A stretch of DNA of 64,000 bases from Leisingera aquimarina DSM 24565. GTDB taxonomy: Bacteria > Pseudomonadota > Alphaproteobacteria > Rhodobacterales > Rhodobacteraceae. Positions 24,133-25,536 of this stretch are shown piece by piece (the first letter of the stretch is position 1; each line of letters starts with the position of its first letter). The translations under genes were made by a program, and so were the position numbers. The stretch covers positions 1,749,437-1,813,436 of the forward strand of contig NZ_KI421504.1 in NCBI RefSeq assembly GCF_000473165.1. The letters are read 5' to 3'. The notes under the pieces were generated by a model that saw only the letters and a program-made list of their open reading frames with translations, had not been told where the DNA came from and ran no database searches.

Positions 24133-24381
24133 GGGCGGATATCAAGACAACACAGGCCGAAGGCTTGATTTTCGATGCTGGCAGACAGCCCCGCTGTTCT
24201 GCTTGGGTAGTGAATTACAGTTTTTGCGTGTGCGTCCGCTCTTCTTAGCGGATCAGGTCATGGTTGTTGCAAAGGACCTGCATAGCTTCACTAAATCAGG
24301 TTGCTCCAAGCAGTCAGCTTACTGTGCCGTGTCGTTCGGGCGATAGTGTTAGCCCTCAGACGCACTCGATGGCTGTCAGGT
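24133..24381. other. Intergenic segment left of the insertion sequence
   Basis: About 250 bases without a credible gene. The word TTGTTGCAAAGG near 24262 resembles the ends of some insertion sequences, so this may be older mobile DNA, but no partner end was found. The 9 bases CTGTCAGGT at 24373-24381 are the left target duplication of the IS. Confidence 0.4.
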
Positions 24382-24806
24382 GGCGTTGTTGCAGAACTCT
24401 GACTTCTGAGGATTCACATCAGGAATCCATGCGCTTGCACGGTCCGCATGAGCAAACCATCCCCTCCCGCGATCGCACAACGAACTGGTCCAGCCTCAAC
24501 GCCGCGTTGCGCAAGCGGGGCTCGCTGCTGATCTGGGTGGACAAGGACATGACTTGGCGCGCGCCGCAGGAATGCCGCCCGGCCCCCCCTGCGGTCTTTT
24601 CCGACGCGGCGATCCAGTTCTGCCTGTCGATCAAAGCGCTGTTCAAGCTACTCTTGCGGCAGACCGCCGGGATGGCGTCGAACCTGCTCCGGCTGGCAGG
24701 TCCGGATTGGCCCGTGCCCGGCTCCTCCACCCTCTGCCGCAGGCAGAAGACACTGGCGGTGCAGATCCCGTATCGCCGCATGGACGGCCCGCTCAACCTG
24801 CTGGTC

Positions 24807-24847
24807 CCCTCTCGGGGCATCACTCTGTGATGCCCTGCCGGGCAATG
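24807..24847 (-). repeat. Hairpin micro-repeat, copy A, inside the transposase
   Basis: Extra bases relative to the transposase reading frame, inserted just before the DSTG codons. Read on the minus strand it has TGCCCGGCAG, then stem GGCATCAC, loop AGA, stem GTGATGCC, then a short tail ending GAGAGGGG. The stem is perfect (9 pairs if one flanking pair is counted). It shares both flanks, but not the stem sequence, with the copy at 24924-24962. Confidence 0.8.
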
Positions 24848-24923
24848 GACAGCACCGGGATCAAGTTGCTTGGGGATGGCGAATGGCAGGCCCGCAAGCA
24901 CGGGGTGCAGGGCCGCCGCCAAT

Positions 24924-24962
24924 CCCTGCCCGGCAGTTGATTGCAAAGCAATCAATGAGAGG
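24924..24962 (+). repeat. Hairpin micro-repeat, copy B, inside the transposase
   Basis: Extra bases between the GRRQ and RKVHLAMD codons of the transposase. On the plus strand it has TGCCCGGCAG, then stem TTGATTGC, loop AAA, stem GCAATCAA, then a tail with GAGAGGGG. The flanks are identical to copy A in the opposite orientation. The stem differs at 5 of 8 positions, yet every change is compensated. It introduces an in-frame TGA. Confidence 0.8.
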
Positions 24963-25536
24963 GGCGCAAGGTGCATCTGGCCATGGACACGGCGACCTCC
25001 GGCATGCGCGCTGTGGAATTCACTCCAAGCCGCGACGGCGACAGCCCTGTGCTGCCGGCCTGTGCTGCCCGACCTGCTCGGTCAGATCCCCGAGGCCGAG
25101 CAGATCGGCACCGTGACCGCTGACCGGGCATATGACACGCGCCGCGGCCACACCGCCATCATCGGCCGGCAAGCCACCCCGGTCATCCCGATCCGCAAGA
25201 ACGGGCCCGCGCGGAAAGAGGATTGCCCGGCTGCGCGGGTCCGCAACGAGACACTGCGTGCCACCCGCCACTACGGCCGGGCGTTCTGGAAGCGCTGGAC
25301 CGGATACCACGCCCGAAGCCGCATCGAAGCCAAGATGCGCTGCCTCAAGGCTTTCAGCGAGCCCATCGCCGCAAGAGACCCCGAGCGCCAGACCGCCGAG
25401 ATCCACATTCGCATCGCTCTTATGAACCGCTGCCACGCGCTCGGCACCGACGAGACCGTCCGCGTGGCATGAAGTCAGTGGGGAAAGGGGAAGTCACACC
25501 TCACGTGTGAGTTCTGCAACAATGCTCTGTCAGGTG

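Follow-up and report, generated by a model that had tools for sequence, protein, structure and literature searches.

The window considered here is a stretch of 64,000 nucleotides from Leisingera aquimarina DSM 24565, and in it one transposase gene contains two short hairpins, called A and B below, that had been picked out from the sequence alone. The question raised by this locus is whether they are pieces of ordinary coding sequence or copies of a mobile DNA unit and, if the latter, what such a unit consists of, where it inserts and what might move it.

Results

The host of both hairpins is an IS5-type insertion sequence (IS) at 24382..25525 on the plus strand, delimited by self matches in a DNA search of its own genome, which also give its inverted ends at about 24382-24399 and 25509-25525. 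The transposase gene, likewise on the plus strand, falls into three pieces. The first (24513..24806) carries the domain DDE_Tnp_1_5 (PF13737; Pfam, 1.3e-32, residues 84-186 of the ORF 24264-24830) and is interrupted by element A immediately before a DST motif, which we take to be the site of the first DDE aspartate. The middle piece (24848..24923) lies between the hairpins and aligns to element-free relatives, and the last piece (24963..25472) matches Pfam DDE_Tnp_1 (4.8e-10, on the ORF 24870-25472).

Element A occupies 24807..24847 on the minus strand (41 bp), with arms at 24815-24823 and 24827-24835 and a 3-base loop at 24824-24826. Element B, at 24924..24962 on the plus strand (39 bp), has a fixed 5' part (24924-24936), arms at 24937-24944 and 24948-24955 around the loop 24945-24947, and a fixed 3' part (24957-24962). 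Both are supported by their predicted folds and by covariance-model matches of 62.9 bits (A) and 56.7 bits (B). The initial annotation had held that the two are extra DNA in the transposase gene, a claim that the same sequence in intact relatives would have refuted. The empty-site alignment bears it out: both hairpins are missing from L069, L070 and L071, which are related copies of the IS elsewhere in this genome (~77-89% identity in the aligned pieces), and compared with them A amounts to 41 and B to 39 extra bases. The coordinates agree with this alignment once A is placed at the junction typical of other sites. The shared flanks, TGCCCGGCAG and GAGAGGGG, do surround perfect stems with 3-base loops in both copies, while the 8-pair stem proposed for both holds only for B (plus strand), the fold of A (minus strand) giving 9 pairs.

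As read from the window sequence, A and B each contain a stop codon in the transposase frame, and A also shifts the frame. Independently of the hairpins, an apparent 13-bp duplication at 25049-25069 (GTGCTGCC twice) shifts the same frame. The DNA search finds, besides the window copy, four near full-length copies of the host IS at 99% and one partial copy at 97%, plus shorter fragments. All six longer copies, at separate loci, hold both elements (A with point changes in three), so the IS has moved after both insertions. Presumably the hairpin-bearing IS spread using transposase from intact copies in the same genome, where three 313-aa transposase matches have no stops.

Had the flanks been found nowhere else, the case for a mobile unit would have failed; the genome contains dozens of further matches. 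The pattern TGCCCGGCAG plus GAGAGGGG at 15-25 spacing is matched 40 times in the 5.34-Mb genome and the reversed control pattern 0 times; the A/B-type hairpin pattern is not due to chance. A covariance model built from 9 elements, with the best 150 candidates scored per genome, gives at least 89 matches at E<=0.001 in this genome. Matches to the model occur in 20 of the 21 Leisingera genomes, ranging from 0 to at least 99 per genome, with the most copies in G002 (at least 99) and at least 20 in G007. Among 101 genomes (the own genome, 20 others of the genus, 40 of other genera of the family and 40 of other families of the class) the flank pattern is present in 33, namely the own genome, 18 of the 20, 14 of the 40 and 0 of the 40, respectively, with reversed controls at 0 throughout. 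Some single matches, that in G048 among them, lack a good stem and appear to be chance hits.

A scan of species genomes with the pattern gave at least 117 matching stretches. Among the 80 matches listed nearly all are from Rhodobacterales, the exceptions being Labrenzia, a Robiginitomaculum MAG and one Enemella contig. The last of these, a contig of Enemella evansiae, is a match in an actinobacterial record and reflects either transfer or contamination. Two of the stems are matched by 102 and 84 plasmid records, and the names among the matches listed are those of roseobacter-group genera. Most matches show no gene under the element, as would follow if the host genes were annotated as pseudogenes, since the table in question omits these. 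As regards a phage origin, 50,697 phage records yielded one weak partial match, and 16 viral contigs matched, several of them without a stem.

A longer, autonomous version of the element was sought among the 51 exact CCRYTGCCCGGCAG matches in the genome, and this candidate was rejected. The model matches at E<=0.001 cover all but five of these. Of the five, two appear to be chance occurrences, one resembles a decayed copy between genes, one is weakly matched by the model and one is at a contig end. In an Rfam search of five loci the only match above the gathering score was ALIL, at L017 1348-1502, outside the A/B-family elements.

The ends of the unit and its target were derived from a fuzzy search of all loci, in which at most one mismatch was allowed in the left part and two in the right, and a stem of at least five pairs was required, G.T included. 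This gave 480 occurrences, partly the same copy in overlapping loci, with 332 distinct strings at about 179 sites, as obtained by a rough clustering of flanks. For 86 of the 179 sites the same loci include a relative without the unit, although some of these alignments are poor, and 47 sites have clean empty-site junctions, ungapped over 12+12 nt. At these junctions the unit is mostly C-N-Y-TGCCCGGCAG, a variable stem-loop and GAGAGG(G). It starts three bases before TGCCCGGCAG, usually with C-N-Y, at 38 of the 47, the other 9 having another placement; where several placements were equal, the one with the C-N-Y start was chosen. The 38 units end in GAGAGGG (27), GAGAGG (10) or GAGAGGGG (1). The insertions measure 36-43 bp, and the element is about 36-45 bp overall. 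Read against each other, the ends CNYTGCCC and GAGAGGG are not inverted repeats.

None of the 47 clean junctions has a direct repeat of two or more bases that could be a target duplication. The unit is directly preceded by ATC in 15 cases and by GTC in 12 (27 of 47 together), and the base after it is G in 43. So far as a comparison of sequences can do so, these data show that the units were inserted precisely, mostly 3' of ATC or GTC and before G, in either orientation and without duplication of the target. Outside the unit the closest pairs of empty and filled sites are 97.1% (245 columns), 96.6% (437), 96.3% (597) and 96.1% (592) identical, which means that some gains are fairly recent. At one IS position, marked by GGTGCTGTC, unrelated stems are present in different genomes (15 distinct middles in 17 strings), and such recurrently hit positions argue for a preferred target. 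A palindromic target was considered and rejected, the flank complementarity at 62 sites being not above that of shuffled pairing (160 and 487 of 2000 as high). The many precise empty sites thus uphold the proposal of a putative mobile unit of about 40 bases with fixed ends; neither excision nor a free unit was seen.

The pairing of the stem was assessed with an unfiltered set, collected by exact fixed parts and no stem filter, which contains 153 distinct middles. A Watson-Crick stem of at least five pairs is present in 120 of them, against 3.8% of shuffles, and one of at least six in 105, against 0.8%. Among the 61 distinct middles of 21 nt, all 8 pairs are Watson-Crick in 11 of the 12 found at two or more sites and in 24 of the 49 found at one site. 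Where two such middles differ at two positions, the change is compensated in 69 cases and not in 49, with ~7% compensated expected by chance, and 86 pairs differ at a single position. The filtered set, for the inner six pairs only, gives 343 compensated, 49 uncompensated and 144 single-position differences. It is important to note that these counts of pairs reuse sequences and are not independent.

The covariation was scored on 36 elements of the filtered set with intact fixed parts. Of 432 cells, 99.1% are paired (78.9 in shuffles) and 75 differ in both partners (25.4 in shuffles). The covariation score is 0.509, a value that 0 of 500 shuffles reach (0.161 in shuffles). Sliding the partner collapses all three measures alike. 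Two measures of the whole structure do not decide the matter: 42 of 500 shuffles have as many pairs with a double change, and 295 of 500 have as many further pair types. Double changes are found in seven of the eight pairs of the second helix. In the first helix (Y-TGC, CCG, GCA-G) the closing pair is the only one to vary (C-G 25, T-G 11), and this helix is for that reason without compensatory support. These results confirm that the stem is variable yet paired, with its differences compensated, as had been inferred from A and B alone. They show, at the level of sequence, that the stem is free in its letters with pairing as the rule, and that almost every stem shared by more than one site is perfect.

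The plus-strand loops of the 61 middles are GNA in 35 cases and TNC in 0, so that the two strands are not alike in this respect; GNA triloops are very stable in DNA. The unpaired column 31 is T in at least 90% of the 36 elements. Whether DNA or RNA parameters are used, single strands fold better than their shuffles (z -1.9 to -3.6); the predicted folds disagree in the outer part, and folding cannot separate RNA from DNA.

The initial annotation had left open whether structure is selected or one arm is copied from the other. That multi-site stems are nearly all perfect fits selection acting on moving copies, but the mismatch bias that would have decided the matter vanished in the unfiltered set. 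Perfect stems at several sites would also fit plain decay after insertion. The bias in question, which would have indicated selection on the plus strand, was an excess of G.T (28) over A.C (4) in 113 of 129 middles. It was rejected as an artefact, since the stem filter used to gather these copies accepts G.T pairing; in the unfiltered set G.T and A.C number 20 and 16 when all lengths are taken, and 8 and 10 in fixed columns.

The setting of the sites was determined by taking one coding-like ORF piece beside each site, ranking the pieces and scanning the best 100 of 179, a few close sites sharing a piece. NCBIfam assigns these best 100 pieces to IS3 (35), IS481 (30, overlapping), IS21 (10), IS1182 (8), IS5 subgroups (up to 7), IS66 (6), IS630 (6), IS256 (5), IS30 (4), IS91 (4), IS982 (3), IS6 (2), IS110 (2) and others. 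If only families unlikely to share members are counted (IS3, IS1182, IS66, IS256, IS91, IS110 and IstB), at least 62 of the 100 scanned pieces belong to transposase genes; by eye the share is higher, some pieces being unclear. In G007, four 130-aa IS5-type transposase pieces each abut an element, with many 313-aa copies alongside. The concentration at transposase genes, a raw share not scaled to the available RTC sites, may reflect either targeting or survival. Relative to the host gene 70 elements are sense and 99 antisense (p 0.03); the frames were guessed from third-position GC, and the difference is too weak to use.

A minority of copies is intergenic, beside thrS, a dehydrogenase and others, and several of these have a short GGCGGC stem and share AAATACTC upstream. 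Short-stem copies with GGCGGC/GCCGCC (L134 1567, L136 1569 and, at 1501, L040, L042, L043, L046, L047 and L049) lie beside apparent housekeeping genes, most of them with a AAATACTC-like motif upstream and AGGC downstream. They are terminator-like, and possibly represent a domesticated copy or a source. The copy at L147 440-479 apparently lacks a stop codon in the transposase frame, which would run on through it (..PLPGRRCLHRRERR..); some insertions may therefore leave the frame open. At L028 2996-3087 the spacing between two elements is 17 bp, compared with 80 bp in sister IS copies; this looks like a deletion between GTGGACGC repeats.

The same transposase genes also contain a second hairpin family, with a fixed CTCGGACCAATGGCG and variable complementary sides such as TTGTC/GACAA and TGCCG/CGGCA. 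Copies are located, on the strand read, at L017 1458 and 1735, L022 2678, 2955 and 3188, and L144 1456. The core CTCGGACCAATGGCG has 14 exact matches in the own genome and is present in 11 of the 21 genomes of the genus. For 20 of 36 distinct copies a relative has a gap of at least 20 there, the ends being undefined.

Discussion

The account that we favour, with about as much doubt as confidence, treats A and B as copies of a mobile DNA element of ~36-45 bp that is non-autonomous and is moved in trans, most likely as a folded single strand, with the IS as its vehicle. An enzyme acting in trans would recognise the fixed parts together with the shape of the folded single strand (DNA rather than RNA), cut at both ends and join the unit 3' of RTC, much as HUH transposases act on IS200/IS605 and REP hairpins. 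The IS would be a tolerated landing site and a carrier, itself moved by transposase from intact copies. All of these steps are inferred. The traces left by single-strand HUH transposition would be of the kind seen here: precise ends without duplication, a short target on the 5' side, and a hairpin along with an unpaired T that is frequent. TnpAREP, IS608 and ISDra2 recognise hairpins with bulges and choose their sites by short guides (PMC8266576). A way of working like that of IS200/IS605 is suggested here by analogy, as a likeness and not as membership.

The enzyme itself could not be identified. A resident IS200- or REP-type transposase, the candidate named at the outset, is not supported: Y1 matches exist in 6 of the 21 genomes of the genus, the own one included, and none were found in the other 15, among them G002. 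A comparison of Y1, Y2 and reverse transcriptase (RT) counts with copy number across the 21 genomes, with IS5 as control, gave no clear partner. The Spearman coefficients with element count are 0.70 for Y2 (IS91-type), 0.42 for the unrelated IS5 family control, 0.41 for Y1 and -0.28 for RT. The Y2 count is 0 in G007 despite its at least 20 element matches, and Y2 genes are themselves hosts of elements.

Several other explanations have to be considered. A route through RNA, in which DNA would be copied from a short structured RNA at nicked RTC sites and which has reportedly been proposed for cyanobacterial small dispersed repeats, seems to us unlikely. The tiny unit, the absent target duplication and RNA folds that beat most shuffles and gain an extra CCC-GGG closing stem would all suit it, but no reverse transcriptase match was found in G002, G003, G019, G009 or G007, each with at least 20 element matches, element counts fall rather than rise with RT genes in rank order, though not significantly, and the triloops are often of the GNA kind that is stable in DNA. 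Template switching or quasi-palindrome repair could instead rewrite one arm from the other, with occasional movement allowed and no need for selection on structure. We regard this as quite unlikely: several stems recur at unrelated sites, empty relatives of up to 97% identity imply that the whole unit was gained, and 25 of the 49 single-site middles are imperfect, with uncompensated changes common, which makes in-place arm repair look inefficient. The mechanism would nevertheless account for compensated two-position differences far above chance (69 of 118 unfiltered and 343 of 392 filtered, the latter for inner pairs only), for the different stems at one IS position, and for the unfiltered count without the excess of G.T over A.C that selection on one strand was expected to give.

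That the tested sites lie mostly beside transposase genes, which come from about ten IS families, that insertions with different stems recur at the same spot before the DST motif and that frames are broken (130 aa against 313 aa in G007) would also be expected if a host or plasmid defence wrote hairpins into transposase genes and so silenced IS elements. This is very unlikely in our view, as survivorship gives the same pattern, IS genes being dispensable and multiplying their passengers, as some copies lie outside IS genes, and as no gene system tied to the hairpins was found, albeit without a systematic search. Finally, the hairpins could be skipped in the mRNA or by the ribosome, for which the mitochondrial byp elements are the comparison case, so that the transposase stays active. 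IS copies bearing both hairpins have indeed multiplied, but we give this option almost no credence: A and B are opposite in orientation within one gene and the elements overall divide into 70 sense and 99 antisense, the window copy has a further frame break, and intact related copies in the genome, three of them of 313 aa without stops, could act in trans.

One can go beyond the favoured single-strand DNA element and suppose that the units form an undescribed, hyperparasite DNA class of transposons, that is, ~40-bp shape-recognised units whose stems drift freely, which specifically target transposase genes of many unrelated IS families and ride between replicons and species; we offer this as a rather doubtful extension, in which the second hairpin family in the same genes hints at a whole guild. 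The roseobacter units are among the smallest mobile DNA with defined ends, a target and natural sequence variation. Since the letters of the stem are free and its pairing is kept, the units amount to a natural experiment on how an unknown enzyme recognises shape. The units account for a set of broken roseobacter transposase genes, and may show how tiny sequences without genes spread across a bacterial order.

Comparison with known small repeats

Rickettsia palindromic elements, too, are hairpin repeats that lie within coding genes. Many host genes tolerate them in frame, whereas the roseobacter units lie in transposase genes, often with stops or shifts. The fungal mitochondrial double-hairpin elements consist of two adjacent hairpins, are mobile and have no known enzyme; in the bacterial units, by contrast, the proposed first hairpin is fixed in sequence and only the second varies. 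The MITE of a DDE transposon has terminal inverted repeats and a target duplication, neither of which the units have (no duplication at 47 junctions). CGTC-tagged palindromic repeats are small palindromes, frequent in alphaproteobacteria and without a dedicated transposase according to their description (PMC3733652), whose main text has no word that starts with Roseo, Ruegeria, Silicibacter or Rhodobacter. They have CGTC at one end, which is absent from the roseobacter unit consensus, and differ from it in stem, loop and flanks. The motif CGTC is present in some target sites of the units.

Cyanobacterial SDRs were reportedly described by Elhai et al. in 2008 as very small mobile repeats whose structure is backed by compensatory change. 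SDRs are 21-27 nt long and cyanobacterial, whereas the present units are about 36-45 bp, belong to Rhodobacterales and are found in transposase genes with an RTC target. IS200/IS605 elements resemble them in inserting 3' of a short target without duplication, as at the 47 roseobacter junctions. REP and REPIN sequences with their RAYT (TnpAREP) are likewise short, non-autonomous single-strand hairpins with fixed ends and a paired middle. In REPINs the ends are conserved, the middle is kept by length and hairpin capacity, and compensatory changes are common (PMC3116915). They are the closest described architecture, with several differences: REPINs have inverted ends, while those of the roseobacter units are not inverted repeats; a GTAG tag lies beside the REP/REPIN hairpin but is missing from the unit consensus (179 sites); REP/REPIN sequences are extragenic, the units mostly in or beside transposase genes; and the former depend on a RAYT (Y1), of which the copy-richest genome, G002, has no match.

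The likeness to SDRs and REP elements suggested in the initial annotation stands for size, structure and compensatory change, but not for GTAG, Y1, extragenic location, a cyanobacterial host or a length of 21-27 nt. No description of the roseobacter hairpin unit was found in the open-licence PMC literature, and to that extent these hairpins look undescribed, with an architecture close to that of REPINs and SDRs.
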